In this document: positions 9,446-61,440 of the stretch, piece by piece
Layout: each line of letters opens with the position of its first letter
How positions within the stretch are numbered: position 1 is the first letter of the stretch
Assembly (NCBI RefSeq): GCF_020422885.1
Contig: NZ_CP084622.1
Coordinates: forward strand, 3,429,001 to 3,493,000
Length of the DNA stretch: 64,000 nt
Source: Mesobacillus sp. S13
Lineage (GTDB): Bacteria > Bacillota > Bacilli > Bacillales > Cytobacillaceae
Direction of reading: 5' to 3'
Translations under genes and position numbers: made by a program
Notes under the pieces: model-generated
What the model saw: the letters and a program-made list of their open reading frames with translations, nothing else
What the model was told of the DNA's origin: nothing
Databases searched by the model: none

Positions 9446-9812
9446 GTTACCGGTTTTCTTCTCATAGACTAAGACCGGGTATTTATTCAGGCTTTATGTG
9501 ACCGGTTTTTCTCTCACTGCCAGAAACAGAGAACATATCCAGGTTTTATGTGGCCGGTTTTCTCTCACTGCTAGAAACCGGGAACATATCCAGGTTTTAT
9601 GTGACCGGTTTTTCTCTCACTGCTAGAAACCGGGAACATATCTAGGTTTTATGTGACCGGTTTTTCTCTCACTGCTAGAAACCGGGAACATATCTAGGTT
9701 TTATGTGACCGGTTTTTCTCTCACTGCTAGAAACCGGGAACATATCCCACGGACAGAAACCGGGAACATTTTATGACCCTGATTCTCTTCTTGAAAAGAG
9801 AATGGGAAACAT
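9446..9812. repeat. 52-bp tandem array A between nadB and nifS
   Basis: Six units start with CCGG at 9450, 9502, 9554, 9605, 9657 and 9709 (spacings 52, 52, 51, 52, 52). Each has arms CCGGTTT and AAACCGG separated by about 15 nt, arm centres 22 bp apart. A second small dyad ACATA/TATGT spans the unit junction. After 9757 there is a partial unit and then a divergent one (9775-9812). No coding potential is apparent. Apart from the nadB and nifS control sites, this fills the intergenic region. Confidence 0.9.
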
Positions 9813-9854
9813 ATTGAAGTGTATAGTACCAAAATTCAAACTAGGAGCGAACCT

Positions 9855-10994
9855 ATGAAATATTTCGACTACGCGGCAACTTGCCCGCTTGACCGGGACG
9901 CGGCCAATATTTTCATTGAAGCGTCTACAAAGTACTTTGGAAATAGCCAGAGTATTCATGAAGCCGGCAGTGCAGCTGCCAATCTCCTCGAGAGCTGCAG
10001 GCAGGAATTTTCGCGCCTGCTGGGTGTCGAAGAAGCGGGGATTTATTTTACAAGCGGAGGTTCTGAAGCGAATTATCTTGGCATCATGGCCCTCCTCTCT
10101 GCTAAAAAGAAACAAGGAAATCATATTATTACCGGGGCCGCTGAACATTCTTCTGTCTATAATCTGATGAAAAAGCTTGAAAAAGAGGGATGGGATATCA
10201 CCTACCTGCCATTGAACAACAACGGCAAAATAGAGTTTGCCAGTTTTACAGAAGCTGTCAGGCCGGATACTGTGCTTGTTTCAATCCAGCATGGTAACCC
10301 GGAAATCGGGACTCTCCAGCCGGTAAAAATCATCGCAGAATACTGCTCCTCTAAAGATATCCTGATTCATACTGATTGCGTGCAAACCTTCGGAAAAATC
10401 CCAACAGCGGCGCTGGCACACACAGTAGATGCCCTGTCCATTTCCGGCCATAAATTTTACGGACCAAAAGGAACCGGAGTGGCTTATGTCAATCCGAAGC
10501 TTGCCCTAAGGCCATACATTGAAGGAACTGTGCACGAAAAGGGCTTCAGGCCTGGCACGGTGAATGTACCAGGAATCGCTGCCATGACAGCTGCAGCGCA
10601 AAAAGCGCAATCCCTCATGGCAGCTGAGTCAGAAAGAATAAGTAAGCTCAGGTCGGCTTTCATTGAAACCTTTAAAGATGCCAAAGACTCATTCGAGATT
10701 TTCGGCTCTGAAGGAAAGGAACAACTCCCAGGAATCCTCGGAATGGGGATTAAAGGCATCGAGGGGCAATTGGTTCTGCTAGAATGCAACTCCAGAGGGC
10801 ATGCAATTTCAACGGGAAGTGCTTGTCATACGGGGATGCTGTCGCCTGCGAAGACGATGTCTGCGATGGGAATCATCGGAAAAGAGGCAAAGGAATTTTT
10901 CAGGATTTCATTCGGGAGGGGAACTAGTCAGGAGGATGCAGTCGAACTTGCGAAAATTCTTGCTGCTATCACGAAACAGGTCCCGGCCGTTTAA
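9855..10994 (+). CDS. nifS: NifS-like cysteine desulfurase linked to NAD synthesis
   Basis: PLP enzyme that mobilises sulfur from cysteine; the nadB-linked NifS is thought to serve the NadA cluster. Family marks are the N-terminal YFDYAATCP, the PLP lysine in SISGHKFYGPKG, and a C-terminal Cys loop (STGSACHTG) carrying the persulfide cysteine. The ATG at 9855 follows AGGAGC; the upstream in-frame ATG at 9819 lacks a site and adds residues unlike the family. Product 379 aa. nadR follows after 57 bp. Confidence 0.94.
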   Translation: MKYFDYAATCPLDRDAANIFIEASTKYFGNSQSIHEAGSAAANLLESCRQEFSRLLGVEEAGIYFTSGGSEANYLGIMALLSAKKKQGNHIITGAAEHSSVYNLMKKLEKEGWDITYLPLNNNGKIEFASFTEAVRPDTVLVSIQHGNPEIGTLQPVKIIAEYCSSKDILIHTDCVQTFGKIPTAALAHTVDALSISGHKFYGPKGTGVAYVNPKLALRPYIEGTVHEKGFRPGTVNVPGIAAMTAAAQKAQSLMAAESERISKLRSAFIETFKDAKDSFEIFGSEGKEQLPGILGMGIKGIEGQLVLLECNSRGHAISTGSACHTGMLSPAKTMSAMGIIGKEAKEFFRISFGRGTSQEDAVELAKILAAITKQVPAV

Positions 10995-11051
10995 CTTCAA
11001 GCTGTTTTTATGGTAAAATTCTCGAATGAAGAAGTCGAAGGAGAGATCGGT

Positions 11052-11591
11052 ATGAAGGAACCTACGAAAATTCTCGGAGATGAACGCCGGGCCTATATCC
11101 TAAAGCGCCTGCAGGAAAGCAGTGAACCTATTACTGGAGGTGACCTTGCGACCATCACGAATGTAAGCAGACAGGTCATTGTTGGCGATATCACCTTGCT
11201 TAAAGCTAAAAACGAGCCTATCATTGCGACCAGTCAGGGATATCTCTATATGCATGCCTCCCGTCCTACTGCAGCGGAAAGGACCATTGCCGTTTCCCAC
11301 GGCCCGGAAAGGACAGAAGAAGAACTCCTGCTTCTTGTTGATCAAGGTGTCACAGTTAAGGACGTAAAAATCGAGCATCCCGTGTATGGGGATTTGACTG
11401 CATCCATCATGGTCTCAAACCGGAACGAAGTAAAACAGTTCATGGAAAAAATCAGAGCAACTAATGCCGCTTACTTATCAGAGTTAACAGGCGGAATCCA
11501 TCTGCACACGATCTCCGCTCCGACGGAAAAAGCGCTAGATGAAGCAGAAGAAACGCTTAGAAAAGAAAAATTATTAATCGACCTGGAATAG
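11052..11591 (+). CDS. nadR: NadR/NiaR (YrxA), 3H-domain repressor of NAD synthesis
   Basis: Nicotinate-responsive transcriptional repressor of nadBCA and nifS in B. subtilis. An N-terminal winged helix (RRAYILKRLQESSEPITGGDLATITNVSRQ, about 10-65) is followed by a 3H domain with conserved histidines in VSHGPE, EHPVYGDL and GGIHLHTI. The ATG at 11052 has AAGGAGAG upstream and gives 179 aa, the family length; the longer frame from 11010 is rejected. Co-directional with nifS, and next to the operon it should control. Confidence 0.95.
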   Translation: MKEPTKILGDERRAYILKRLQESSEPITGGDLATITNVSRQVIVGDITLLKAKNEPIIATSQGYLYMHASRPTAAERTIAVSHGPERTEEELLLLVDQGVTVKDVKIEHPVYGDLTASIMVSNRNEVKQFMEKIRATNAAYLSELTGGIHLHTISAPTEKALDEAEETLRKEKLLIDLE

Positions 11592-11598
11592 AATGCAA

Positions 11599-11632
11599 AA
11601 AGATCCATCACATAAGCGATGGATCTTTTTTA
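11599..11632. terminator. Bidirectional terminator between nadR and pheA
   Basis: GATCCATC (11602-11609) and GATGGATC (11618-11625) form an 8-bp stem, with A-run on the left and T6 on the right, so it can end both converging transcripts. Confidence 0.9.
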
Positions 11633-12472
11633 TACCTTATAGCTTGAATAGCTTCCGAGCAACTTTACTGTGCAGCCTAATGCTTCCAGTTCTGCAATCG
11701 CTCCCGGAATCAAAACATCATCCAATTTTAAATTAATATCAATAATGAAAAAGTATTTGCCCAAGCCTGTTTTCATCGGGCGTGATTCAATCTTTGACAG
11801 ATTGAGCTTGCGCCATGAGAAAGCAGATAACACTTGATGCAGCGCACCAGCCCGATCTGATGGCAAGGTTATCACCAGACTTGTCTTGTACTCTTCAGTT
11901 GATGCCATGTTTATATCATGGCCTTCCTTTGCCAGCACAGCGAAGACAGTATGATTATAGCTGTAATCATGGATATTTTGCGTAACCGGCACTAATCCGT
12001 ACTCCTCTGCAGCAAGGCTATTGGCGATGGCAGCGATGTTTCTTTCTGGATGGTTTTGTATATATTTTGCCGCTGCGGCTGTAGAGGACATATTTTCGAG
12101 AGGAATTCCTTTGAATTCTTTATGTAAAAATTTATGGCATTGCGCAAGCGCGTGTGGATGGCTGAATATCTGTTCAGCTTCCCTCCATTTTTCCATATTG
12201 TCTGGGTGAATCAGCAAATGCTGCCTGATTGGCACCACCGCTTCAGCAACAATCTGTAGATCTGTTTCATGGACTAAATAATCGATGGTAAGATTGACGG
12301 AACCCTCGATTGAGTTTTCCAGCGGAACAATCGCTGCGTCAATTTCTCCTGTTGAAGCGGCATCCATGCATTCTGGTATACTCACAAACGGAATTCTCTT
12401 AGCCTCTTTAAACAATTGCCGGGCAGCATAATCTGTAAATGTCGCGTCCGGCCCAAGATATCCAATATTCAA
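11630..12472 (-). CDS. pheA: PheA, prephenate dehydratase
   Basis: Converts prephenate to phenylpyruvate in phenylalanine synthesis. The catalytic domain occupies about 1-185 (IGYLGPDATFTDYAA, VPLENSIEGSVN, SSTAAAAKYI) and a regulatory ACT domain follows (about 198-275) with the Phe-binding motif KIESRP, suggesting feedback control by phenylalanine. The start is TTG at 12472, well placed after GGAGGGGGG. The stop overlaps the terminator tail. It is last in the run pheB-pheA. Confidence 0.96.
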   Translation of the reverse strand: MNIGYLGPDATFTDYAARQLFKEAKRIPFVSIPECMDAASTGEIDAAIVPLENSIEGSVNLTIDYLVHETDLQIVAEAVVPIRQHLLIHPDNMEKWREAEQIFSHPHALAQCHKFLHKEFKGIPLENMSSTAAAAKYIQNHPERNIAAIANSLAAEEYGLVPVTQNIHDYSYNHTVFAVLAKEGHDINMASTEEYKTSLVITLPSDRAGALHQVLSAFSWRKLNLSKIESRPMKTGLGKYFFIIDINLKLDDVLIPGAIAELEALGCTVKLLGSYSSYKV

Positions 12473-12501
12473 GCCAATCCCCCCTCCTACAAAGCTTGAC
12501 G

Positions 12502-12963
12502 TTAAGCACCTGATCCGAGCACTTCTACTTTTTCTACAAACTCCAGTCTTTTCAGTCTCGCGAGCAATTCGTCCATTTCGACACTCATTTCGGTGACATT
12601 CAGGCTCAGCGTTACATTCGCCCTGCTTTGCAGAGGAATGGTCTGATGGATGGTCAAAACATTGCAGCCTGCTGCAGCGACGGTGCTCAGCAGTTCAGAA
12701 AGTGTACCAGAACGATCTTCAAGCTGAAAAAACAGCGTAATGATTCGTTCCTTCACAACCGTATGGAACGGAAACACGGTATCTCGGTATTTGTAAAAGG
12801 CACTCCGGCTCAAATCGACGCGTTGAACTGCATCCCAGACTGACTCTGCCTTACCGCGCTCGATCATTTCCTTCGCCTCAAGTGTCTTCTTCATTGCTTC
12901 AGGCAGGACATCTTCACGAACAAGGTAAAACTTCCTATCTTGATTTTGCTTCATCTCCAACAC
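12502..12963 (-). CDS. pheB: PheB, ACT-domain protein
   Basis: Small ACT-domain protein of the obg-pheB-pheA cluster; historically called PheB/chorismate mutase-like, its biochemical role is not settled. The N-terminal [21 protein letters not shown] region has an HTH-like segment ([13 protein letters not shown]), and the ACT domain spans about 75-150 ([19 protein letters not shown]). The start is unclear: GTG at 12963, TTG at 12960 and ATG at 12954 are in frame; the GGAG just before the ATG is too close to serve it. Confidence 0.9.
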
Positions 12964-13028
12964 CCCATTAGATTGAAAGCTTCTTTATTTTTTCTGCCGA
13001 ATCTTTAATTAAAAAAGCCATTTTTTAT

Positions 13029-13069
13029 AAAGGAAAGCCGATTAACCTGTTCCTGGCTAATCGACCTTT
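13029..13069 (-). terminator. Probable terminator after obg
   Basis: Minus strand: AAAGG/CCTTT and CGATTA/TAATCG arms form a split stem between obg and pheB. The following sequence is A/T-rich but not a clean T-run, so read-through into pheB is likely. Confidence 0.45.
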
Positions 13070-13083
13070 CAAATCCTTTAAGG

Positions 13084-14376
13084 CTATTCCACGAATTCAA
13101 ATTCATATTCAAGCAGCTTGACTGTATCTCCGTCTTTCGCGCCTCTTTCACGAAGTGCATCGTCAATGCCCATGCCGCGCATCTGGCGGGCGAACCTTTG
13201 GACAGATTCATCCCTTGAGAAATCAGTCATCTTGAACAGCCTTTCAATACTGTCACCCGAAATGACGAATGCTCCATCCGACTCACGGGTGATCTGGAAT
13301 TCCTGTTCAGCTTTCTCGTGCTTGTACATCACGCGGTTTTCATCTTTTTCCAATACCTCTTCATCAATGAGAGGGAACTCCGGTGTTTTTTCAATCAAGT
13401 CAGCTACCGCGAATAATAATTCACGCAGACCTTCTCTTGTAACAGCCGAAATTGGGAATACAGGATGTTCATCCCCGACTTTTTCCTTGAACACTTTCAG
13501 GTTTTCTTCCGCATCTGGCATGTCCATTTTATTGGCGACAATGACTTGAGGTCTTTCCGTCAGCCTCAAATTGTATTCCTTCAATTCATTATTGATTGTC
13601 AGATAATCCTCGTACGGATCACGGCCTTCCGTTGCCGCCATGTCAATAACATGGATGATGACACGTGTACGTTCGATATGGCGCAGGAATTGATGCCCAA
13701 GGCCCACTCCTGAATGTGCACCTTCAATAAGTCCAGGCAAGTCCGCAAGAACAAAGCTTCGGCCGTCTTCTGTTTCGACCATTCCCAGGTTCGGGGCAAT
13801 CGTCGTGAAGTGGTATTCTGCAATCTTCGGTCTAGCTGCTGAAACAACAGACAATAACGTCGATTTCCCTACGCTTGGGAAGCCTACCAGTCCAACATCC
13901 GCAAGGAGCTTCAATTCCATGACAATTTCTCTTTCCTGTCCGGGCTCCCCTTTTTCTGAGAGCTCTGGTGCCGGGTTGGCTGGTGTAGCAAAGCGTGAGT
14001 TACCACGGCCGCCTCGGCCACCCCTGGCGATAACTGCCTTCTGGCCATGCTCTACCAGGTCAGCAATGATCGCGCCAGTCTCAGCGTCGGATACGATTGT
14101 CCCTGGTGGAACTTTTACGATCATATCCTTGGAATTTTTACCATGCTGGTTTTTAGACATTCCGTGCTCTCCGCGAGGTGCCTTGAAATGGCGCTGATAC
14201 CTGAAATCCATCAGCGTACGCAGTCCCTCTTCCACCTGGAAGACCACATTTGCACCGTTACCGCCGTCGCCGCCAGCAGGGCCGCCCTTCGGTACGTATT
14301 TTTCACGTCGGAACGCGACCATTCCATCGCCGCCGTCCCCGCCTTTTACATAAATTTTAACCTGATCGACAAACAT
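13084..14376 (-). CDS. obgE: Obg, ribosome-associated essential GTPase
   Basis: Essential GTPase for large-subunit maturation, also needed for the general stress response and sporulation in B. subtilis. Glycine-rich Obg fold (about 1-158, [18 protein letters not shown]), G domain with [23 protein letters not shown] and NKMD, then an OCT domain at the C-terminus. Length 430 is normal. The ATG at 14376 follows AGGTGG. It is 48 bp downstream of spo0B, as in B. subtilis where the two are co-transcribed. Confidence 0.97.
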
Positions 14377-14424
14377 TATGTCATTACCACCTGTCTGAAA
14401 TTTGTTATCGCTTAATATGTTTCC

Positions 14425-14964
14425 CTAGAGTGATTCTATAAAAACTTCTATTGTCAATTCGCCATCGACAACGCCATCCGATATCACTTTCATTTTTTCA
14501 CCGTTCTGCTGGTCGAGGAAGCTTTCTAAGCGATTTTTATCCTTTATTATTCCGCTAAAATCAAAAAAGAACCCGATTCCTTTCTCCTGCGGTTCAATTG
14601 TGACGGAGAGATGATTTTCCTGATATGGTTCAATCGAAGAATTCAATGTATCAAAAAGCTGCTCTGTCCAGCCAGTCAACAGCTGGTCATCTAATCTGTG
14701 GAAGTTCTGGGAGTCCATTACTTCATATTCCAATTGGAAATGATGATTCTCCCAATTGCAGGTTAACAAGGTAGAGGCAAACTGAGGAAGATGTAAATTA
14801 GATAGCTTTGCATCCTGCCTGGCTTCCATGATAATTTCTTCAATGATCTCTTTAGCCCGGTCCACTTTATTCAGCGATAAATTCCCTTTAATTAATTGAA
14901 GCTGATTCATCCAATCATGGCGTGCATGGCGCAAAACCTCGATTGTATCCCACTCTTTTTTCAT
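14425..14964 (-). CDS. spo0B: Spo0B, sporulation phosphotransferase
   Basis: Relays phosphate from Spo0F to Spo0A in the phosphorelay. The diagnostic helix LRHARHDWMNQLQLIKGN is present; the His of RHDWMN (residue 16 from the chosen start) corresponds to the phosphorylated His30 of B. subtilis. The C-terminal half resembles a degenerate histidine-kinase ATPase fold. The ATG at 14964 is chosen because AGGAG lies 7 nt upstream; this gives 179 aa with a shorter N-terminus than in B. subtilis. Confidence 0.94.
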   Translation of the reverse strand: MKKEWDTIEVLRHARHDWMNQLQLIKGNLSLNKVDRAKEIIEEIIMEARQDAKLSNLHLPQFASTLLTCNWENHHFQLEYEVMDSQNFHRLDDQLLTGWTEQLFDTLNSSIEPYQENHLSVTIEPQEKGIGFFFDFSGIIKDKNRLESFLDQQNGEKMKVISDGVVDGELTIEVFIESL

Positions 14965-15110
14965 ACACATACTCCTACTCATAAGACTGCTTGGTGTAAG
15001 TATAACAAAAAAGCCATTCTGCGTAAGCTAATTATGTATTTAAGTTAGTTGGATTTCTTTTCATGTTCTCATTCATATCCAGAAGCAACAAGCCGTAAAA
15101 TACAAGAAAA

Positions 15111-15131
15111 CCCTAACCGCAGTGGTTAGGG
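15111..15131 (-). terminator. Terminator of the rplU-prp-rpmA operon
   Basis: CCCTAACC and GGTTAGGG form an 8-bp stem with a 5-nt loop, followed on the minus strand by TTTTCTTGT, directly after rpmA. Confidence 0.85.
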
Positions 15132-15143
15132 CTTCTCTTTAGC

Positions 15144-15780
<637 letters not shown>

Positions 15781-15795
15781 GGTAATCCGCCTTAA

Positions 15796-16104
15796 TTAAG
15801 CGTTGATCTTTTCGATAACAACTTTAGTGTAAGGCTGACGATGACCTTGCTTCTTACGATTGTTCTTTTTCGCTTTGTACTTGAAAACGATGATTTTCTT
15901 TTGACGGCCGTTCTTTTCAACTTTAGCAGTTACAGTTGCGCCTTCAACTACTGGGCTACCAACTTTAACGTTATCGCCACCTACAAAAAGAACCTTGTCA
16001 AAAGTTACAGTTTCGCCTTCAGCAGCGTTTAGCTTTTCAATGTAGATTGCTTGTCCTTCTTCTACCTTTACTTGCTTGCCGCCAGTTTCGATAATTGCGT
16101 ACAT
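15796..16104 (-). CDS. rplU: Ribosomal protein bL21
   Basis: Large-subunit 23S rRNA-binding protein. The 102-aa product begins [17 protein letters not shown] and ends with the basic [22 protein letters not shown] segment typical of L21. The ATG at 16104 follows GAGGAGGTGC; the longer in-frame start at 16164 lies inside the leader and is rejected. Confidence 0.98.
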
Positions 16105-16215
16105 TCCAGTGCACCTCCTCATTAGACTCAGACTCGCCAACCGCAGGCGTTTGCGAATTTGCAAAGCTTAGATACCTGAAGTGTGCGGTTGTAGCACGGG
16201 TGCTACAAACAATAA
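16105..16215 (-). ncRNA. L21 leader (autoregulatory mRNA element)
   Basis: The 5-prime UTR of rplU carries two stem-loops on the minus strand: GTAGCAC/GTGCTAC and CGCAAACGCCTGCGG-type pairing, ending in the segment GAGTCTGAGTCTAATGAGG next to the ribosome-binding site. This matches the known L21 leader layout of Bacillota, thought to be bound by L21 for feedback control. Boundaries are approximate. Confidence 0.75.
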
Positions 16216-16222
16216 CATTAAA

Positions 16223-16252
16223 ATACTATCATATGCCGAGCAAAAGTGTCAA
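16223..16252 (-). promoter_or_regulatory. Probable sigma-A promoter of rplU-prp-rpmA
   Basis: TTGACA (16247-16252) and TAGTAT (16223-16228) on the minus strand, 18 bp apart, just upstream of the L21 leader. Confidence 0.6.
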
Positions 16253-16288
16253 CATATTAATATATGTTCTTTTAATGGCCAGCTTGGC

Positions 16289-17743: not shown

Positions 17744-17759
17744 TGTTTCTCCTTACCCA

Positions 17760-17797: not shown

Positions 17798-17808
17798 ATT
17801 ATCCTATT

Positions 17809-44599: not shown

Positions 44600-44880
44600 A
44601 TAAAAAACTCCATTCGCCATAAAAGGACGAATGGAGTTTGTTCGCGGTACCACCTTTTTTCCCAGCAACGGTAAAAACTGAGTTCTGCTGCTGGCTCAAA
44701 TACGGATAACGGTTCTTCACCGTCGCCTGTTACTGAGAGAAATCCGTTCCCAGGCGATGCTCAAGGGCGACCTTCCATGGTTCCGGCTTAGAAGTCCTCC
44801 CAGCTAATGGACTCCCTCTCTTGAAGCTGGCTGCTCATGTACTCTTCCCTGTCAAAGCTTTGCTTTATTATGTGTTTTGT
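44600..44880 (-). promoter_or_regulatory. T-box riboswitch of valS
   Basis: tRNA-sensing leader that lets transcription continue when tRNA-Val is uncharged. The T-box sequence AGGTGGTACCGCGAAC (44640-44655) pairs with the tRNA end, and its TGGT fits an A discriminator. The terminator CTCCATTCG/CGAATGGAG with TTTTTT follows (44600-44636). The Stem I region (about 44740-44850) includes AGAGAGGGAGTCC and a candidate GTC specifier in GAAGGTCGCCC; the specifier call is tentative. Confidence 0.93.
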
Positions 44881-46607: not shown

Positions 46608-47765
46608 TTAATTATTATGAACCGCTACTCCAGGAACATATAGTACCTGGCCTTCATGAACTTCATGGTCGATGCTCAGATGATTGACCCGGAGAAGCTG
46701 CTGGACTGGCACATCATAGCGTTCGGAAATCGATTGAAGCGAGTCGCCTTGCTGAACAATGCAAACTCTTATTTTAGCAACCTCTGTTTCTTCTTCCTTA
46801 CGCGCTAAAAATTCAGCAATGGAAATGCCTTGTTTCATATTCGGCTTCTTCTTTTTCAATACTGGGGAAGATGAGCTTTCAGGAGACTCTTCCACTTCGG
46901 CAGGCATACTTTCTGAGACTGGCTCTTCTGGTGCCTCCATCTCTACCTCCACTTCCTCTTCCTCAACCTCCATAACGGGCTCTTGCTCACCTCTGAAATC
47001 ACTTAGAGCATATTCCAGCTCTGGTTCTCGTTGAGCCTGTTGTTCAGACTCCGAGGCGTCCTCTACGGCAGCAGTTTTCTTCGCTTCAGCCCTGAAAGGG
47101 GCATAAAGTTCTTCTTCATAGGTATCTTCTTCTTGTTGATTCAAAGTCTCATTTTGCTGGACAAACGAATAGGCTGGAGCTTCGGGGAAGTGTGCTTCCT
47201 CTCTTTCTTCCTGGCTATCATTTGCTGCACCTGCTTCTGTTTCAACTTCAACATCAACTTCTGCAGTAGCCTCCCTGTAGCTGACTTCCAGTTCTTGTGC
47301 CTCTTCACTATCTGCATCCTCTTCGGCTTCATGCTGCTGTTCGCCGTACAGGCCCGTGATGGCTAGGTCTGCATTCAGCTTCAGGCGGTCTGATTCTGGG
47401 AACTCATAATCAAATCCTTCTACTTGAATATCAATGTCATAAATGCTCTCGATCCGGTTTTTAGGAATTGTGATATCCACCGGGAAACGATGAAGGAACT
47501 CATAGACACCTTCTTCCCTCTCCATCACAGAATGCACATACTTAAGAGCTGCGATCTGATCATCAACCTCTTGCTGCTGTTCACGGCATGTATATTCCCC
47601 AGTCAACTCCAGCGATCCGCGAATGGATACGTATTGTTCATTTTCCTGGATGGTTATATTCGGATCGAGTGAAATCGAGACAAGCTCCGCGACTTCCTGT
47701 CCTCTTTGAAACCACACAGACTCTTCTAATGAAAATCGCAGGCACGATTGATTCCCCTGAGACAA
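46608..47765 (-). CDS. spoVID: SpoVID, coat morphogenetic protein
   Basis: Directs coat encasement and binds SafA in B. subtilis. The N-terminal domain (about 8-150) starts CLRFSLEESVWFQRGQEVAEL and includes VSIRGSLELTGEY and FPVDITIPKNRI. A very Glu-rich middle (about 150-310) follows, then KPNMKQGISIAEFLARKEEE and a C-terminal LysM (about 335-382, VCIVQQGDSLQSISERYD). The start is TTG at 47765, 7 nt after AAAGGAGG; the ATG at 47783 overlaps that site. Product 385 aa. Confidence 0.93.
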   Translation of the reverse strand: MSQGNQSCLRFSLEESVWFQRGQEVAELVSISLDPNITIQENEQYVSIRGSLELTGEYTCREQQQEVDDQIAALKYVHSVMEREEGVYEFLHRFPVDITIPKNRIESIYDIDIQVEGFDYEFPESDRLKLNADLAITGLYGEQQHEAEEDADSEEAQELEVSYREATAEVDVEVETEAGAANDSQEEREEAHFPEAPAYSFVQQNETLNQQEEDTYEEELYAPFRAEAKKTAAVEDASESEQQAQREPELEYALSDFRGEQEPVMEVEEEEVEVEMEAPEEPVSESMPAEVEESPESSSSPVLKKKKPNMKQGISIAEFLARKEEETEVAKIRVCIVQQGDSLQSISERYDVPVQQLLRVNHLSIDHEVHEGQVLYVPGVAVHNN

Positions 47766-47814
47766 AGCGACTCCTCCTTTCATTCCTTAAACGTAAAATC
47801 ACTATGTCATTAAC

Positions 47815-47943: not shown

Positions 47944-49000
47944 TCTTGTCCGAACCCAGAGCTACTTCGGACAAAGTTGAAAGAATACGACCTCGTTTTG
48001 TCCGAACCTGGAGCTGCTTCAGACAAAGTTAAGAGAATACGACCGTGTTTTGTCCGAACCTGGAGCTGCTTCAGACAAAGTTAAAAGAGAACGGCCGCGT
48101 TTTGTCCGAACCTGGAGCTACTTCGGACAAAGTTAAGAGAAAACGGCTGTGTTTTGTCCGAACCTGGAGCTACTTCAGACAAAGTTAAGAGAGAACGGCC
48201 GCGTTTTGTCCGAACCTGGAGCTACTTCAGACAAAGTTAAGAGAGAACCGCCGCGTTTTGTCCGAACCTGGAGCTGCTTCGGACAAAGTTAAGAGACACT
48301 GAACGCGTTTTGTCCGAACCTGGAGCTACTTCGGACAACGTTAAGAGAGAACGGCCGCGTTTTGTCCGAACCTGGAGCTACTTCGGACAAAGTTAAGAGA
48401 CACCGAACGCGTTTTGTCCGAACCTGGAGCTACTTCGGACAAAGTTAAGAGAGAACGGCCGCGTTTTGTCCGAACCTGGAGCTACTTCGGACAAAGTTAA
48501 GAGACACCGAACGCGTTTTGTCCGAACCTGGAGCTACTTCGGACAAAGTTAAGAGAGAACGGCCGCGTTTTGTCCGAACCTGGAGCTACTTCAGACAAAA
48601 TTATGAGAAGACGACCACGTTTTGTCCGAACCTGGAGCTACTTGATACAAAACTAAGAGACACCGGACGCGTTTTGTCCGAACCTGGAGCTGCTTCGGAC
48701 AAAATTATGAGACACCGGACGCGTTTTGTCCGAACCTGGATCTACTTCAGACAAAGTTAAGAGAGAATGGCCGCGTTTTGTCCAAACCTGGAGCTACTTC
48801 GGACAAATTTAAGAGAGAACGGCCGCGTTCTGTCCGAACCTGGAGCTACTTCGGACAAAGTTAAGAGAATATGGCCGTGTTTTGTCTGAACCTAGGCCTA
48901 CTTCGGACAAAGTTAAGAGAATACAGCTGAGTTTTGTCCAAACCTGGAGCTACTTCGGACAAAGTTAAGAGACTACGACCTCGTTTTGTCCGAACCCTAT
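47944..49000. repeat. 52-bp tandem array B between hemL and spoVID
   Basis: Twenty complete units and a partial one, with the TCCGAA core at 47949, 48001, 48053 and so on to 48989, every step exactly 52 bp. Each unit has arms TTTGTCCGAA and TTCGGACAAA around an 11-nt CCTGGAGCTAC centre, arm offset 21 bp, then GTTAAGAGA and a 12-nt variable part. Because 52 is not a multiple of 3 the reading frame shifts each unit, so it is not coding. It fills most of the 1.28-kb gene-free gap. Confidence 0.97.
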
Positions 49001-49011: not shown

Positions 49012-49040
49012 AAAAAAACACTCTCCAAAACGGAGAGTGT
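49012..49040 (-). terminator. Terminator of the hem operon
   Basis: ACACTCTCC and GGAGAGTGT form a 9-bp stem with a 5-nt loop and a following TTTTTTT on the minus strand. Confidence 0.92.
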
Positions 49041-49048
49041 CAAATTGA

Positions 49049-50341
49049 TTATTTATTCTGCAGCTTAGCGAATGCTTTTTCGGCTGCTTGTATGGTTTTT
49101 TCCAGGTCTTCGTCTGTGTGCGCTGTAGACAGGAATAATCCTTCGAACTGTGATGGCGGAAGGAATACTCCTTCGTTTGCCATTTCACGGTAGTAGGCTG
49201 CAAAGAACTCCAGGTTTGATTGTCTGGCCACGTCATAGTTGATGACATTTTCATTTGTGAAGAAGATGCCAATCATGGATCCAGCGCGGTTGATTGTGTG
49301 CGGAATCCCGTATTTCTCAGCTGCAGCCTTCAGGCCATTTTCAAGAATGTCAGCTTTGCGCTCAAACTCTTTGTATGACTCTGGAGTCAGCTGCTTCAAT
49401 GTCTCGAGTCCAGCTGTCATCGCCAGCGGGTTGCCTGATAGTGTGCCAGCCTGGTAAATCGGACCGCTTGGAGCGATTTGCTCCATGATTTCTCTCTTGC
49501 CGCCGTATGCGCCAACCGGAAGCCCGCCGCCGATTACTTTTCCAAGGCAAGTGAGGTCAGGTGTTACATTATAATAGCCTTGTGCGCAGTTATATCCTAC
49601 GCGGAAGCCTGTCATAACCTCATCAAAAATAAGTACTGTGCCATTCTGAGCGGTGATTTCACGCAAGCCTTCGAGGAAGCCTTCAACAGGAGGAACGACT
49701 CCCATATTCCCAGCTACTGGTTCAACGATCACACCAGCGATATCATCACCAAACTGTTCGAATGCGTAACGGACGCTTTCAAGATCATTGTAAGGTACTG
49801 TAATCGTGTTTTGGGCAACTCCCTCTGGAACACCCGGGCTGTCTGGCAAGCCTAGTGTAGCGACACCTGAGCCTGCTTTAATCAGCAATGAGTCTCCATG
49901 ACCATGGTAACAGCCTTCAAATTTCAAGATTTTATTGCGACCTGTATATCCGCGTGCCAGTCGCAATGCACTCATTGTTGCCTCAGTGCCCGAAGATACC
50001 ATCCTCACCATTTCGATTGACGGCACGCGATCAATGACTAGTTGCGCAAGCTCATTCTCGACAAGTGTCGGTGCTCCGAAGCTTGTCCCAAGCTCTGCCA
50101 CTTTCTTGATTCCCTCAACAACCTTTTCGTTCGTGTGTCCAAGGATCAGCGGTCCCCAAGACAGTACATAGTCAATATACTCATTGCCATCGATGTCATA
50201 GATTTTTGAACCTTTTCCTTTTTCCATGAAGATAGGATCCATATCAACAGACTTGAATGCGCGAACCGGACTGTTAACTCCTCCCGGCAAAAGTTCTGTC
50301 GCTTCCTTAAAAGCTTGAATCGATTTTTCATATGAGCGCAT
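49049..50341 (-). CDS. hemL: HemL, glutamate-1-semialdehyde aminomutase
   Basis: PLP enzyme making 5-aminolevulinate from glutamate-1-semialdehyde, the second step of the C5 path started by Hem[17 protein letters not shown] opens the protein; the PLP pocket has [27 protein letters not shown] and the lysine in [17 protein letters not shown]. The ATG at 50341 with GAGGGATAG upstream gives 430 aa beginning MRSYEKS, as in relatives; 50359 is rejected. Last gene of hemAXCDBL. Confidence 0.97.
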
Positions 50342-50410
50342 ACTATCCCTCATTTCCATTTAATAGACTCTGGCGTTTCGGTTCCGGTCGTTATAAAGAC
50401 AGCTTTAATA

Positions 50411-53103: not shown

Positions 53104-53115
53104 GATAGCCTCCTA

Positions 53116-53949: not shown

Positions 53950-53963
53950 GGGCATTACCTCTC

Positions 53964-55310
53964 TTACGGCTGAAAAGAAGCCTGAGGCGAAGGAACTTTT
54001 ACCTGCTTGGTTTCAGCTGTTTTCATTCCTTCTTGTTCAGCGACGAGCTGTTCAATATTGAAAATCTTCACGAATAAATTCAGTGCTTCATCAGCATCCG
54101 GTCCAGCTGCAAGCTCTTTTGCCTGAAGGATTGGATCCTTGAGGAGCTGGTTGATGATGCTCTTTGTATGTTTGTTAAGGACTTTAATATCACGATCAGA
54201 TAGATGTGGCAATTTGCGCTCGATGCTGTTCATCGTCTCTTGCTGGATTGAAAGGGCTTTGACCCTCAATGCAGAGATAACCGGAACGACACCTAATGTA
54301 TTCAGCCACTGTTTGAATTGGACGATCTCGCTTTCAATCATGATCAGGATTTTCTCCGCAGCCTTCTGGCGTTCCTGTAGATTCGCTTCAACAATGCCCT
54401 CCAGATCATCGATATCATAAAGGAATACATTTTCAAGTGTAGCGATTTCAGGATCAAGATCACGCGGTACAGCGATATCAACCATGAATAATGGTTTTCC
54501 TTTTCGCTTTTGCTCGACCTTTGCCATCATATCCTTTGTGACAACAAAGTTCTTCGCACCTGTCGAACTGATCAGGATATCCGCATCCACGAGCGCAGTT
54601 TGGAGTTCATCCAGAGTTTTTGCCATGCCAGAGAAACGATTCGCCAAATCCTCAGCTTTCTGGTAAGTACGGTTGATGACCGTCACCTTCTTCGCACCAT
54701 TGGCGTGAAGGTTTTGGATCGCAAGCTCACCCATTTTCCCGGCACCAAGAATCAGGACATGCTTCTGGTCCAGTGTCCCGAAAATCTTCTTGGCAAGCTC
54801 AACAGCCGCATAACTTACAGAAACAGCATTCGCACCGATATCGGTTTCGGAATGGCCGCGCTTGGCAATCGTGACTGCCTGCTTGAACAGCTGGTTGAAG
54901 ACTGTTCCAGTCGTATTCTTTTCAAGGCCAAGCATGAAGCTTGAGCGCACCTGCCCAAGGATCTGGGTTTCACCAAGCACCATGGAATTTAACCCACAAG
55001 AAACCTTGAATAAATGTTCAATTGCACCGTCTTGCTCATAAATGAACAGGAACGGAGTAAATTCTGCCTGAGGGATCCCGAACCATTCAGATAGAAACTC
55101 TTTGATATAATATCTGCCTGTATGAAGCTGGTCCACCACGGCATATATTTCTGTACGGTTGCAAGTTGATACGATGACATTCTCGAGGATGCTCTTCTTT
55201 TCCTGAAGGGCACTCATGGCTTCACCAAGGTTCGCCTCGTTGAATGTCAATCTTTCGCGGATTTCGACAGGGGCAGTTTTATAGTTTAGACCGACAACGA
55301 TAATATGCAT
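53964..55310 (-). CDS. hemA: HemA, glutamyl-tRNA reductase
   Basis: Reduces glutamyl-tRNA to glutamate-1-semialdehyde, the committed and regulated step. [17 protein letters not shown], the catalytic Cys in [16 protein letters not shown] domain [12 protein letters not shown] and a C-terminal dimerisation helix. The ATG at 55310 gives [11 protein letters not shown] as in relatives (448 aa); the ribosome-binding GTGGGGGTG is rather distant. First gene of the operon. Confidence 0.97.
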
Positions 55311-55340
55311 TATGAATTGACACCCCCACATAGAAATTGC

Positions 55341-55363
55341 ATAATTGGCTAAGGCAATTATAC
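55341..55363 (-). promoter_or_regulatory. Candidate hemA -10 box overlapped by a palindrome
   Basis: Minus strand TATAAT (55358-55363) is overlapped by a perfect inverted repeat, ATAATTG (55341-55347) and CAATTAT (55355-55361), with a 7-nt spacer. No good -35 is visible. The dyad does not fit the 7-1-7 PerR box, so any regulator is unassigned. Confidence 0.45.
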
Positions 55364-55569
55364 ATGACGTTTTTTTCCTTCTTACGTTGTAAATGTGAAC
55401 AACTTTCGAAAAAAATATATATATAAATGCATTGATTAAATTGAACTATCTCTTCTGTTTATTTGTTATACTTTTATACTATATCAAAAGCAAATAAACA
55501 TACTCCCTAATGTACCTTATCAAAGTTTGTCCTTTAATTCAAGTGAGCCTTTCTGGAAGTGGTGAAAGA

Positions 55570-56055
55570 ATGAAAAATCAAAGAATTATACCCGGAATGA
55601 TATTGATTGGATTTGGAATCTATTTTTATCTTCAACAGGAAAATGTTTCGTTGTTCAATGAATTTTATACGTGGCCGACACTTCTGATCATCGTAGGAGC
55701 TGCCTTTTTAGTTCAAGGCTATTGGGGCAAAGATTATGAAGCTATCTTTCCGGGCGTGATACTCGTTGGATTCGGTGTCCACTTTCATGTGGTCAATAAA
55801 TTCTCACTCTGGCCTGATCATCTTGGAGCCTTCATATTAATCATTGCCCTTGGCTTTTTGCTGCGATACCAGAAAACAGGCAACGGCTTGTTCTACGGTG
55901 TCCTCTTTCTCATTTTAGCAGCATTGCTGCTGTTTTATGACAGAATCAGCGGATGGCTTGGTTTATTGGAAAATGGAGTTTCGACCGCATGGAGATTTTG
56001 GCCTGCAGCATTGATCCTGATTGGTGTCTACCTGTTATTTATTAAAAAGAAATAA
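55570..56055 (+). CDS. Four- to six-span membrane protein (YsxD position)
   Basis: 161-aa integral membrane protein with repeated segments of the type RIIPGMILIGFGIYFYL, AIFPGVILVGFGVHFHV and RFWPAALILIGVYLLFI, resembling the LiaF/DUF5668 N-terminal membrane module (GxxLIxxGxxFL repeats). Its place between hemA and engB suggests the B. subtilis ysxD equivalent. The ATG at 55570 is chosen over 55510 for its GTGGTGAAAG site. The function is unknown. Confidence 0.8.
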   Translation: MKNQRIIPGMILIGFGIYFYLQQENVSLFNEFYTWPTLLIIVGAAFLVQGYWGKDYEAIFPGVILVGFGVHFHVVNKFSLWPDHLGAFILIIALGFLLRYQKTGNGLFYGVLFLILAALLLFYDRISGWLGLLENGVSTAWRFWPAALILIGVYLLFIKKK

Positions 56056-56057
56056 GA

Positions 56058-56092
56058 AGACCCGCACTGTGTTCGAATCACGGTGCGGGTTT
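56058..56092. terminator. Bidirectional terminator between the membrane protein and engB
   Basis: CCCGCACTGTG (56061-56071) and CACGGTGCGGG (56079-56089) form an 11-bp stem with one G-U, followed by TTTCTTTT on the plus strand. Confidence 0.88.
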
Positions 56093-56110
56093 CTTTTATA
56101 TTGAAATATA

Positions 56111-56695
56111 TTATCTCATGAAACTTCCTAATACTGACCAGGCTTTGTCTTTTCCTTCGCCAGTTTCTGATGAAAAAAGAATGATGGTATCATCAGGATC
56201 GAGATCAAGAGTTTCTTTGGTAATTTTTAAGTGTTTTTGCCACTTTGATTTCGGAATTTTATCCGCTTTGGTCGCAATGATAATGACTGGGATGTCGTAA
56301 TGCTTGAGGAAATCATACATCATCACATCATCCTTTGAAGGCGGGTGCCTTAGATCAACGATCAGCAGCATCGCTCTCAACTGTTCGCGTGAGGTGATAT
56401 AAGTTTCGATCATCTTGCCCCAGGCTTCACGTTCCGACTTGGAAACCTTCGCATACCCGTATCCTGGAACATCAACAAAATGAATCATTTCATTGATCAA
56501 GTAAAAATTGAGGGTCTGAGTCTTGCCCGGCTTGGAAGAAGTCCTTGCAAGGGCTTTCCTGTTAAGCATTTTATTGATAAAAGAGGATTTACCAACATTC
56601 GACCGGCCTGCAAGGGCGAATTCCGGAAGATTTCCTTCCGGATATTGATTCGGCCTTACAGCACTAATCACGATTTCTGCACTATTTACTTTCAT
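56111..56695 (-). CDS. engB: EngB (YsxC/YihA), ribosome-assembly GTPase
   Basis: Essential GTPase for 50S assembly. G1 [16 protein letters not shown]3 [11 protein letters not shown]4 [11 protein letters not shown] and G5 [10 protein letters not shown] are all present in 194 aa. The ATG at 56695 overlaps the lonA stop by 4 bp, so translation is probably coupled. Confidence 0.97.
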
Positions 56696-59019
56696 TGAGA
56701 ATCACCGCTAGCAAGAGCGTGCTTCAATACTTCATCTACATGGGATACTAACACGAATTCAAGCTCCTTACGTACACTTTCAGGAATATCATCAATATCT
56801 TTTTCATTATCTTTTGGACAAATAACCTTAGTAAGGCCAGCTCTGTGGGCACTCAATGATTTTTCCTTAAGCCCGCCAATTGGCAGTACACGCCCTCTGA
56901 GCGTTATTTCTCCTGTCATTCCTACTTCCCTGCGGATCGGCTTTCCTGATAACGCAGAAACGAGAGCAGTAGCAATCGTAATCCCCGCTGAAGGTCCATC
57001 TTTCGGTACAGCACCTTCTGGAACGTGGATGTGAATATCATTCTTTTCATGGAAATCAGGATCAATGTCCAGGTCCTTCGCTTTGGAACGCACATAGCTG
57101 AAAGCAGCCTGCGCGGATTCCTTCATGACATCCCCCAGCTTACCCGTGAGGACCAGCTTGCCTTTTCCTGGCGACAAGGAGACTTCAATCTGGAGTGTGT
57201 CACCGCCGACTGTTGTATAAGCTAGTCCAGTGGCAACGCCCACCTGGTCTTCCAGCTCAGCCTGCCCATACCTGAATTTAGTCTTGCCAAGGAATTCCTC
57301 AACATTCTTTTCACTGACTATTACACGCTTCTTCTCTCCGGAAACAACGATTTTCGCCGTTTTCCGGCAGATGGATGCAAGCTGTCTCTCAAGAGAACGC
57401 ACACCTGATTCCCTAGTATAATAACGGATTACCTTTGTGATGGCTTCATCCTTCATCTGTAACTGTGATTTGGACAGACCATGATCCTTGATTTGGCGTG
57501 GAAGCAAATGGTCCTTGGCAATATGCAGCTTTTCCTGCTCTGTATAGCCAGCAATATTGATGATTTCCATCCTGTCTAGCAATGGACCTGGTACAGTTGA
57601 AAGATTATTGGCAGTAGCGATGAACATTACTTTTGAAAGGTCATATGCCTCTTCAATGTAATGATCGCTGAAATTATGGTTTTGTTCGGGATCGAGCACC
57701 TCTAGCATCGCAGAAGAAGGATCACCGCGGAAATCATTGGACATTTTATCGATTTCATCAAGAAGGAACACAGGATTAATCGTACCTGCCTTTTTCATTC
57801 CCTGGATGACCCGTCCTGGCATAGCGCCGACATATGTCCTTCTGTGCCCGCGGATTTCTGACTCATCACGGACTCCACCTAAAGAAACCCTTACAAAATT
57901 ACGGTTCAGGGATTTCGCAATCGACCTTGCAAGACTCGTTTTACCGACTCCTGGAGGTCCAGCCAGACAAAGAATTGGTCCCTTCAAGGAGTTTGTCAGC
58001 TTCTGGACTGCCAGATATTCAAGAACCCTTTCCTTTACCTTTTCAAGTCCATAATGGTCCTTATCAAGAATTTTTTCTGCCTTGCTGATATCAAGGTCAT
58101 CCTCTGTCGATTTTGACCACGGCAAAGCAACAAGCCATTCGATATAGTTCCGGATAACGGCACTTTCTGCTGATGTCGTCGGAACCTTTTCATAACGGTC
58201 AAGTTCCTTCAAAGCTGTTTCCTTCACATTTTCAGGCATGCCAGCAAGCTCGATTTTTTCGGTCAGCTCAGCAATTTCTCCTGTCTTCCCTTCCTTTTCA
58301 CCAAGCTCTTTTTGAATCGCCTTCATCTGTTCACGCAGATAATATTCCTTTTGGGTCCGTTCCATCGAACGCTTAACCCGCTGGCCAATCTTCTTCTCAA
58401 GGCCCAGAACTTCTTTTTCATTATGGATGATTTCGATGACACGATTCATCCGTTCCTTGATCTCAATCGTTTCAAGAATTTCCTGTTTCTCTTTTAGCTT
58501 AAGAGGCAAATGGGAGGCGATGATATCCGCCATCCTGCCTGGCTCCTCAATGTCTGAAACAGATGCATACGTTTCCGCAGAAATCTTCTTGGACATTTTT
58601 ATGTATTGTTCGAAATACTCAAGCATCGTTCTCATCAATGCTTCATCTTCGACATCCTTGGATTCATCGTCTTCGAACGTCCTTACCTTACAGGAGAAAT
58701 GGTCATTTTCATCAGAAATTTCAATGATTTCAGCTCTCGACAATCCTTCAACCAATACACGGATCGTTCCGTTCGGGAGCTTCAGCATTTGCTTGACGCG
58801 AGTCAGTGTACCCATCTGATACAAATCCTCTTCGCCTGGTTCATCTATGGATATATCCTTTTGGGTTGTAAGATAGATTAAATGGTCATCCACCATTGCC
58901 TTCTCCAGTGCCTGTACCGATTTTTCACGCCCCACATCCAAATGCAGGACCATCGTCGGATATACAAGTAAACCGCGCAGCGGCAGGAGAGGGACAGTGT
59001 GTTCATTTTTATTCGCCAT
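56692..59019 (-). CDS. lonA: LonA, ATP-dependent protease
   Basis: Cytosolic quality-control protease. LON N-domain (about 8-200), AAA+ module with Walker [10 protein letters not shown] (about 354-362) and FLLDEIDKM, then a Ser-Lys protease domain with catalytic Ser in KDGPSAGIT (about 676) and Lys in [14 protein letters not shown] (about 719). Length 775. The ATG at 59019 follows GGAGGTGC. I saw no CtsR box upstream. Confidence 0.98.
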
Positions 59020-59364
59020 GACATTGCACCTCCAACATGCATTGTATCAAACCATAAGTATAATAATACTTTGTTGTTCAATTCTATCGTATTTATTTTC
59101 TAGTGTCTAATATCAGCACCGATAAGCCTCATTGATTAGTATCCTGATATTCATGTGAAAATATGTCCACATCTGAAGTTACTTTCGAAAGCATACAAGA
59201 ATATTTTTGGGAAGGATCTGATATACCGTCCCATACCCTCTTTCCTTTTCTCAGGGAAAAATAAACCCACTTTGTTGCTGTGCTAAATATTTAAGGGACT
59301 TGAGTATTTGTTCCCTCACCGATTAGCCTCTACCCGTGGTACACGTTCATTAGGAAAAAAGCCT

Positions 59365-59395
59365 AAAAAAAGAACGCCGGCAAGCGTTCTTTTTT
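59365..59395 (-). terminator. Terminator of lonB
   Basis: AGAACGC and GCGTTCT with flanking A and T runs form a stem around CGGCAA, just after the lonB stop. The rest of the 59020-59365 gap shows no ORF or clear repeat and presumably holds the lonA promoter. Confidence 0.88.
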
Positions 59396-59401
59396 ACGAT
59401 A

Positions 59402-61069
59402 TTAGCTCGTCTCTTTTTGAGTCAATTCATCGGCTGCTTTAATGATTTGCTCTCTTGGATGATCTTTTACAAGAGCAATTTCAAATACTTCATTCAGGTG
59501 GGTGACAGGAATGATCTCTATATCGGTGATTTCATTAAGAATCGTCTGGACATTTTCTTTTGGAATGATCACCTTTTTGGCACCTGCTTTTTTTGCTGCC
59601 TTCACTTTAGGAAAGACACCGCCAATTGGCTTCACATTGCCGTGAATGCTGATTTCACCTGTCATCGCGACCGTATTGTCCATCGGGATTTTATAGATGG
59701 CTGAATAAATCCCTGTCGCCATTGCGATTCCGGCAGAAGGGCCATCGATTGGAGTGCCGCCTGGGAAATTTACATGGATGTCGAATTCATCGGCTGGAAC
59801 GCCCATCGACCTAAGGACAGTGATGACATTTTCAATCGAACCTCGCGCCATACTCTTACGGCGTATTGATTTTCCCTGTCCGCCGATACTCTCTTCATCG
59901 ACGATACCAGTTATATTGATGGACCCTTTTTCCTTTGCTTTGATGACCGTCACTTCGATTTCGAGAAGTGCGCCTGTGTTGGGACCATACACAGCCAAGC
60001 CATTAACTAGGCCGACTGCTGATTTTTCATTAATCCGTCTTTCCATCCTTGGTGTCAGCTGGCTTGAATGGACCACCCATTCAATTTCCTCTTCTTTAAT
60101 ATAGGTCCGTTCATCTGTTATTGCCAATCCAGCGGCAATCTGCACCATATTAACGGCTTCACGTCCATTACGGGCATAATTCGATAAAATCTCAATCGCT
60201 TTTCCACTCATAGTCAGCTGTACTTTTTCTGCAGCATTCCTTGCTACTTCAGAAATTTCCTCCTGGGTTAGCTCACGGAAAAATACTTCCATGCATCTCG
60301 ACCTGATTGCTGGAGGTATTTCACTTGGAGTTCTCGTCGTTGCTCCGACAAGACGGAAGTCTGCTGGGAGCCCATTTTTGAAGATATCATGGATATGGCT
60401 TGGTATTTGCGTGTTTTCTTCATTATAATACGCACTCTCCAAGAACACTTTCCTGTCTTCCAATACTTTTAAAAGCTTGTTCATTTGGATAGGATGCAGT
60501 TCCCCAATTTCATCAATGAATAATACTCCGCCATGCGCATTGGTAACAGCACCTTGTTTCGGCTGTGGAATACCCGCCTGGCCCATCGCACCGGCTCCTT
60601 GATAAATCGGATCATGAACAGATCCGATTAATGGGTCGGCGATTCCTCTTTCATCAAACCTCGCCGTCGTGGCATCCAACTCAACAAATACTGAAGATTT
60701 TTTGAAGGGGGATTTTTCGTTTTGCTTAGCTTCTTCTAATACCAGTCTGGCCGCAGCTGTTTTCCCTACTCCAGGCGGTCCATAAATGATGACATGCTGA
60801 GGATTCGGTCCACATAAGGCAGCTTTTAGTGCCTTAATTCCATCTTCCTGTCCAACAATATCCCTGAAGCTTGATGGTCTGACTTTTTCAGCTAGTGGTT
60901 CACTCAAAGAAACCGATCTCATCTTCCTTAACTGTTCCATTTCCTTTCGGGATTCCCGATCAATTGATACTTTTTGAGTCCGCTGATTCTTAAGTAAATT
61001 CCAGAAATACAGCCCGATGATGATTCCAAAAAACAGCTGTATGAACAAGGCGATTCCGGTCCAACTCAA
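59402..61069 (-). CDS. lonB: LonB, membrane-anchored sporulation Lon-like protease
   Basis: Forespore-associated Lon paralogue (sigma-F dependent in B. subtilis). An N-terminal membrane segment (about 4-23, IALFIQLFFGIIIGLYFW) replaces the LON domain. AAA+ motifs [17 protein letters not shown] (about 95-111) and GVLFIDEIGELHP follow, then the protease domain with Ser in PIDGPSAGIAMATG and Lys in KVKAAKKAGAKK. Length 555. The start is TTG at 61069 after GGGAGGG. Confidence 0.95.
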   Translation of the reverse strand: MSWTGIALFIQLFFGIIIGLYFWNLLKNQRTQKVSIDRESRKEMEQLRKMRSVSLSEPLAEKVRPSSFRDIVGQEDGIKALKAALCGPNPQHVIIYGPPGVGKTAAARLVLEEAKQNEKSPFKKSSVFVELDATTARFDERGIADPLIGSVHDPIYQGAGAMGQAGIPQPKQGAVTNAHGGVLFIDEIGELHPIQMNKLLKVLEDRKVFLESAYYNEENTQIPSHIHDIFKNGLPADFRLVGATTRTPSEIPPAIRSRCMEVFFRELTQEEISEVARNAAEKVQLTMSGKAIEILSNYARNGREAVNMVQIAAGLAITDERTYIKEEEIEWVVHSSQLTPRMERRINEKSAVGLVNGLAVYGPNTGALLEIEVTVIKAKEKGSINITGIVDEESIGGQGKSIRRKSMARGSIENVITVLRSMGVPADEFDIHVNFPGGTPIDGPSAGIAMATGIYSAIYKIPMDNTVAMTGEISIHGNVKPIGGVFPKVKAAKKAGAKKVIIPKENVQTILNEITDIEIIPVTHLNEVFEIALVKDHPREQIIKAADELTQKETS

Positions 61070-61237
61070 TTATATTCCCTCCCGTAAGTTGATACTATTG
61101 GCTTTAACCTAGTATCTCCCTGAGAGTGTTGGAATAAACAATATTTTCAAGTGAATTTTCCCATTTGGATAGACCCTGGTATGGAAGGGAAATGAATAGG
61201 TTTTCTCCGATTTTCCGGAAGATTTGGAGATGATTCG

Positions 61238-61440
61238 GACAGATTTTCAACTCACACCGCTAAAAACCTGTCTTAAGTTGCTGTACTTCTGACAGCTTTT
61301 CCTCTTTTCACCCCAAACCTGTCTTAAGTTGCCCTTTCTTTTGACAGTTTTTCTTCCTTTAACACCAAACCTGTCTTAAGTTTACCTTACTTTTGACAGC
61401 TTTTCTTCTTTCTTCGCTGAACCTGTCCGGATTTCAATGC
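61238..61440. repeat. 52-bp tandem array C between clpX and lonB
   Basis: CCTGTC starts at 61267, 61318, 61370 and 61422 (spacings 51, 52, 52). Units pair CTGTC with GACAG 24 bp further on, with conserved AAACCTGTCTTAAGTT and CTTTTGACAG blocks. A decayed half-unit (GACAG at 61238) precedes the first and the last unit is partial. No coding potential. Confidence 0.88.

Follow-up and report, generated by a model that had tools for sequence, protein, structure and literature searches.

A 64,000-nt window of the Mesobacillus sp. S13 chromosome (NZ_CP084622.1, positions 3,429,001 to 3,493,000, forward strand) contains three intergenic tandem-repeat arrays that advance in steps of 52 bp and carry a pair of inverted arms in each unit. 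These arrays belong to the 52-nt repeats of constant length and variable sequence of Bacillus, which the available part of PMC8161180 presents as an enigma of unknown function. From sequence comparison we tentatively favour, at close to an even chance, the explanation that they are helically phased binding platforms for a putative sequence-specific DNA-binding protein. The platform reading draws on the step itself, the fixed frame of the half-sites, the conservation of half-sites over spacers at one site (of the A type) and the intergenic position. It also draws on two tested chromosomal addresses that persist although their copy number changes, and on two families, B and C, that are oriented along the replication fork. 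Relative to the available part of PMC8161180, four things are new: a TGTC-N19-GACA frame, fork polarity, conservation of arms over spacers at one site, and the sharing of an address by 52-bp and 20/21-bp arrays.

All three arrays read on the plus strand. Array 1 (family D, 9442..9812) has about six 52-bp units with arms TATGTGACCGGTTT and AAACCGGGAACATA, and its final part, up to 9812, is degenerate. Tandem Repeats Finder (TRF) reported a period of 52 over 9442-9747 (5.9 copies, 90% matches), and the best inverted repeat was equalled by 0.5% of 200 shuffles. Array 2 (family A, 47946..48996) comprises about 20 units of 52 bp with the consensus TTTTGTCYGAAC-N9-CTTCRGACAAA followed by a spacer of about 20 bp; TRF gave period 52 over 47946-48996 with 20.2 copies, and 20 of 20 left-arm intervals are exactly 52. 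Array 3 (family C, 61238..61440) has about three to four 52-bp units with arms AAACCTGTCTTAAG and CTTTTGACAGCTTT (TRF period 52, 61264-61411, 2.9 copies), and a C-family query recovered it at chromosomal positions 3490264-3490403 together with a total of more than 20 loci genome-wide. A lag scan placed the best lag at 52 for arrays 2 and 3, with scores of 757 and 56 against 13 and 10 for the best of 15 shuffles. These results confirm two claims of an earlier sequence-only reading of the window, that it holds three arrays of 52-bp period and that each unit has inverted arms. That reading had also called the three sequences unrelated, which holds for array 1, whose CCGGTTT arms differ in sequence from arrays 2 and 3, and fails for arrays 2 and 3, which have TGTC-N19-GACA in common.

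The period extends across the genome (4.81 Mb, one contig). A census by TRF and merging over stretches totalling 915 kb found 69 intergenic arrays with a step of about 52 bp, a lower bound for the chromosome: 18 of family A, 19 of B, 24 of C, and two each of D, F, G and H, with a step of 53 in family G and one poor F assignment (score 0.53). The family shares are not unbiased, because the stretches were picked partly by A, B and C searches. Outside the census lie four further D loci (near 486k, 727k, 807k and 1098k), a weak fifth at 1526k and two A clusters (1223k and 2373k). Over the whole genome, a two-unit query from array 2 gave 194 matches, a C-type query 74 and a CGATAG-type (B) query 55, and the A-arm pattern matched exactly 202 times versus 0 for its reversed control. 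Among the 100 of these 202 matches that were listed, all fell into nine clusters and none was solitary; a solitary site adjoining a candidate regulator gene was sought among the same 100 and rejected. In the A family (18 arrays, arms with up to two mismatches), successive left arms are 52 apart in 239 of 259 cases. A roughly even sample of 20 stretches of 20 kb contained a periodic stretch in 22/153 gaps versus 0 in one shuffle per gap; the lags were 52 (10 gaps), 51 (3), 42 (4), 21 (1) and 12, 34, 38 and 45 (one each), and the top seven scores were all at lag 52.

These properties match those of the Bacillus 52-nt and 20-21-nt repeats in the available part of PMC8161180, where B. selenatarsenatis has 82 tandem repeats, 49 of them of 51-53 nt (Table 4). 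Common to both are a repeat length of 51-53 bp in most arrays (here in the A-family intervals and by TRF over the 915 kb), several sequence families of one length within a genome, short signals that are often reversed within the same repeat, and a length that varies between strains. The arrays are also non-coding: their step cannot be divided by 3 and no array lies inside an open reading frame (ORF) of at least 80 aa, and several ORFs, two of them longer than 500 aa, overlap array edges by up to 135 bp.

The A-family unit consists of TTTTGTCYGAAC, a loop, CTTCRGACAAAA and then about 20 bp that are common within an array and differ between arrays. Where a left arm has a right arm within 28 bp, the two are 21 apart in 241 of 247 cases (18 arrays; up to two mismatches). 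TGTC-N19-GACA is the frame common to four families (A, B, C and H): inside arrays the two motifs occur 485 times at spacing 19 versus 69 times summed over 59 other spacings, and outside arrays 19 times at spacing 19, with an average of 12.8 at other spacings. The exact frame is present in 5 of the 27 consensus repeats published in Table 1 of PMC8161180 (shuffle average 0.02), and in 15 of these 27 the inverted repeat exceeds what shuffles reach. Inverted arms beyond shuffles, the signal and its reverse of the Bacillus 52-nt repeats, were found in families A, B, C, D, G and H; in family F, 25% of shuffles equal the best inverted repeat. In relatives, the array between lonB and clpX has CTGTCYGAA half-sites, near the TTGTCYGAA of array 2.

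Orientation follows replication in two families. GC skew is still positive at 2.50 Mb (+0.05) and negative by 2.73 Mb (-0.035), although one stretch at 2.42 Mb is already at -0.011, and this switch places the origin probably near 0 and the terminus near 2.6 Mb. All 24 C arrays follow the fork (15/15 on the minus strand of the left replichore, 9/9 on the plus strand of the right), as do 16 of 19 B arrays; the three B exceptions are all in convergent gaps. In convergent, divergent or head-on gaps, a count that leaves out six C and three B gaps of ambiguous type, the fork is followed by C in 9/9 and by B in 7/10. Two relatives (G009 and G019; G and L numbers are our labels for genomes and loci) show a single polarity switch in all rows listed, and a third (G018) has one exception, in each case among the best part of 285 matches; their origin and terminus are unmapped and their addresses partly shared, such that they are not independent of the main genome. 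The leading strand is purine-rich in 63/69 arrays (mean 0.244) versus 165/242 other gaps (mean 0.043); as a universal rule this bias was rejected, being strong in the main genome and not clear in two other genera (G055 and G052). A literature search by title or abstract start found no paper on fork polarity of these repeats, and orientation, leading and palindrom each returned 0 uses in a term search of the main text of PMC8161180.

Placement relative to genes is looser. The distance to a flanking start has a median of 131 bp with 10th-90th percentiles of 37-356 bp (n=49; 69 arrays), and 18 of the 69 arrays lie in convergent gaps with no start codon adjacent, so the proposed placement about 175 bp upstream of a start is refuted as a rule. 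The distance to a flanking stop codon has a median of 96 bp (n=73).

The two addresses tested persist in the genus. Among 19 relatives, the lonB-clpX gap holds a 51-52-bp array in 14. The spoVID-hemL gap holds an array in 15, with a step of 52 bp in 11, of 53 bp and another sequence in one (G012), and of 20/21 bp in three (G011, G015 and G020). The number of units at one address varies widely, from 2 to 22. Between-genome identity, from TRF consensus units whose alignment did not rely on the core (12 units at spoVID-hemL, 15 at lonB-clpX), was 0.98 for the core, 0.86 for the arm flanks (the next 8 bp per arm), 0.70 for the loop and 0.50 for the spacer at spoVID-hemL, and 0.97, 0.81, 0.68 and 0.85, respectively, at lonB-clpX. 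A comparison with core-picked units gave the same picture, its core identities of 0.96 and 0.98 being inflated because those units were selected by the core. The available part of PMC8161180 calls conservation between strains partial and states no sequence conservation. An A-type unit pair was found by DNA search in 18/20 genus relatives and 0/20 others; named records with matches to the A-type pattern include Mesobacillus selenatarsenatis, Cytobacillus and Bacillus sp. ISL. The sequence-only reading had named a broad spread of periods and a lack of conservation among relatives as the outcomes that would count against it, and the comparison, run in part, produced neither.

In other genera (38 genomes, 24 genera) the spoVID-hemL gap is periodic in five by the scan's own mark (L195 at lag 51, L197 at 21, L208 at 40/20, L211 at 21 and L229 at 21), and at a score of at least 16.5 in 7/38, adding L203 (51) and L207 (20). 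Three of the 38 genomes, among them that of L207, yielded no spoVID, and there the scan covered the 700 bp after hemL instead. The enrichment is weak (7/38 versus 12/179 gaps in four sampled genomes); a Fisher p of 0.02 was set aside, as its denominator was 36 and its genomes were mixed. In another genus (G055), six of eight periodic gaps have lag 52, with different sequences. In the sister 21-bp arrays some 9-12 bp are conserved as a block while the remainder varies more freely, with a step of 21 in most and 20-21 in two. The 21-bp class of the main genome is not surely non-coding, each of five array stretches tested having a stop-free frame, with open frames of 52 to 229 codons; stops occur in all six frames of a longer L053 stretch and of the spoVID-hemL arrays of G015, G020, G011 and L207.

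The arrays are intergenic satellites with a 52-bp step, and in most of them each step carries a pair of inverted half-sites some 10-12 bp long. On the platform reading, a single sequence-specific DNA-binding protein would line up along them in many adjacent copies. The protein would read the half-sites, and the step would be kept because neighbouring molecules must share one face of the DNA, 52 bp being close to five turns. Such platforms would organise the chromosome, acting between transcription units as insulators or as anchors of the nucleoid, and would not regulate single genes. The 20/21-bp arrays at the shared address may be a two-turn version, with one half-site per step and no inverted partner. 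The earlier suggestion of phased binding arrays stands as the best-fitting reading, with a period seen genome-wide in the A-family intervals and the even sample; that a protein binds them we infer.

Several observations weigh against this reading. A arrays lack fork polarity (12/18, p 0.19), and the purine bias in G055 and G052 is positive in only 4/7 arrays, two of them near zero. Among the 27 published consensus repeats, 12 have no inverted repeat or none better than shuffles, so not every repeat of this class has paired arms. Arms are constrained over spacers at one of the two sites, spoVID-hemL and not lonB-clpX; this and the 12 repeats without arms lower the platform reading and raise its strongest rival, that of selfish satellites. 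Four of the 19 relatives have no array at spoVID-hemL and five none at lonB-clpX, so no single platform is essential. RNA of the window arrays folds better than dinucleotide shuffles (z -1.6, -2.5, -3.4 and -2.3), and 52-nt repeats of B. coagulans are transcribed, according to the available part of PMC8625621, which leaves a role as RNA open.

That rival, which we consider clearly less probable and yet the next to be weighed, holds that the arrays are selfish or neutral satellites, arising by slippage and unequal exchange and seeded by copying between loci; the arms would be kept because the copying machinery, a recombinase or single-stranded-DNA transposase, reads them, fork polarity would reflect strand-specific insertion, and the host would gain nothing. 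The wide range of copy number at one address, the homogenisation of units within an array while spacers differ between arrays, and an orientation of B and C that tracks the fork, as expected of entry on one replication strand, all suit it. However, simple slippage gives no reason for different sequences to share a single period, the arrays persist at two addresses across most of the genus, and the spoVID-hemL slot is retained while its sequence class changes. Moreover, the genome holds a single Y1-type transposase gene (one PF01797 match), and its 3.3-kb locus lacks both TGTC-N19-GACA, even with one mismatch allowed, and a 52-bp period (one stretch has lag 72), although no search for other recombinases was made.

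The arrays might instead be transcribed as trains of RNA hairpins acting as small RNAs, RNA sponges or protectors of mRNA ends, a proposal already made in the sequence-only reading that we regard as unlikely. It draws on arms that can pair, on the folding and transcription noted above, and on the many arrays that follow the 3′ end of a gene. At the degenerate pyrimidine/purine position of the A-family arms, however, the two arms combine as CG (78), TG (70), CA (69), TA (27) and other (2). Watson–Crick pairs number 104/245, inside the null from shuffling within arrays (108.9 ± 4.9) and below that from global shuffling (126.8 ± 7.5), so that no pairing covariation was seen at this one position of one family. 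The position varies independently between arms, which fits two copies of one protein half-site and not a conserved stem. C polarity tracks the fork and not the flanking genes, no inverted repeat exceeds shuffles in any of the seven sister 20/21-bp arrays tested (the two that were folded gave z 0.4 and 0.4 for L053 and -1.5 and -1.2 for L064), and Rfam 15 returned no match at gathering thresholds on the window arrays or those of 12 further loci. Intrinsic curvature, by which the step would put A-tracts in phase and bend the chromosome without protein, is very improbable. On the wedge values used, C units are somewhat more curved than dinucleotide shuffles (mean z 1.68, 9/22 in the top 5%), and over all families 12/66 units are in the top 5% versus 3.3 expected, whereas B units are not curved (mean z 0.05, 0/19) and A units only weakly so (2/18), and curvature leaves the fixed TGTC-GACA frame unexplained. 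Curvature common to all families was rejected; an earlier count of 34/66 above z 2 came from an inferior column-permutation control, which dinucleotide shuffles replaced.

Other repeat systems share some of these features. Repetitive extragenic palindromes and their bacterial interspersed mosaic elements (REP/BIME), served by REP-associated tyrosine transposases (RAYT), likewise form many intergenic arrays with elements in alternating orientation; here, by contrast, the step is fixed at 52 bp, the half-sites are by inspection not hairpins in themselves and the single Y1-type transposase lies away from the arrays. A RAYT/REP origin was rejected, with one such transposase and no arrays adjoining it as a cognate flanked element would have. 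Clustered regularly interspaced short palindromic repeats (CRISPR) are also regular and partly palindromic, but the parts between the arms here are repeated within an array and are not unique spacers, and 69 arrays in 915 kb are far too many for that identity. Minisatellites such as mycobacterial interspersed repetitive units and variable-number tandem repeats (MIRU/VNTR) are also intergenic tandem repeats with fixed addresses and variable copy number; MIRUs are not known to have either paired inverted half-sites in a fixed frame or a single step length.

In the window, array 1 lies between nadB (L-aspartate oxidase, 7653..9263, minus strand; NCBIfam TIGR00551) and a gene for an IscS-subfamily cysteine desulfurase (9855..10994, plus; NF002806). 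This plus-strand neighbour starts 42 bp after the array end (107 bp after the core array), so the gap is divergent. Array 2 is flanked by spoVID (46608..47783, minus; TIGR02907) and hemL (49049..50359, minus; TIGR00713), and array 3 by lonB (59402..61069, minus; TIGR02902) and clpX (61494..62786, minus; TIGR00382). A pattern scan found hairpins resembling intrinsic terminators just past each of these two arrays, that of hemL at 49017..49041 (minus; 11-pair stem and T run) and that of clpX at 61459..61486 (minus; 12-pair stem and T run); arrays 2 and 3 each have such a hairpin, belonging to the gene upstream, on one side and the start of the next gene on the other. NCBIfam agrees with the names nadB, spoVID and lonB first given to these genes, and the distances first reported are reproduced from the ORFs for nadB (183 bp) and lonB (169 bp) and, for spoVID, are 179 bp if TTG 47765 is the start and 161 bp from the longest ORF.

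Elsewhere in the window, tandem repeats with periods of 33, 36, 42 and 87 (multiples of 3) at 3862-4443, within an ORF at 3577-5556 (minus), are distinct from the 52-bp arrays, and a T-box leader (44620-44864, minus) and an L21 leader (16120-16200, minus) are ordinary. The 53-bp G family, with arms GTACCCTTAT and ATAAGGGTAC, occurs at L160:1224-1582 and L172:52-174, and two units of it stand at the spoVID-hemL address of G012 (L192). The spoVID-hemL gaps of L175 (G017), L176 (G009) and L191 (G015) contain what looks like an insertion, a few hundred bases long and bounded by matching ends (TGTTGATT ... AATCAACA); it resembles a separate dispersed repeat and in G015 adjoins a 20/21-bp array. Many pattern matches, for example in L108, L110, L113, L114 and L130, lie within 100 bases of a locus start, apparently at contig ends, as if the arrays broke short-read assemblies. 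A record titled Chryseobacterium sp. ISL-80 (L099 and L116) has Bacillaceae-type arrays and is likely misnamed or mixed.

A broader version of the platform reading, which we put forward only as a long shot, is a replication-oriented landmark system. One protein family of drifting specificity would coat the phased half-sites of roughly a hundred gaps that are conserved, read fork direction from their polarity and anchor or insulate the nucleoid every few tens of kilobases, with paired 52-bp and single 21-bp arrays interchangeable. The frame, the lack of covariation, the address shared by 52-bp and 21-bp arrays and the fork polarity make the enigma testable: does a protein bind the TGTC-N19-GACA duplex, and what does a half-turn change of the step do? 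The discovery of such a binding protein would give a Bacillaceae group a chromosome-organising factor with dozens of its sites per genome already mapped.

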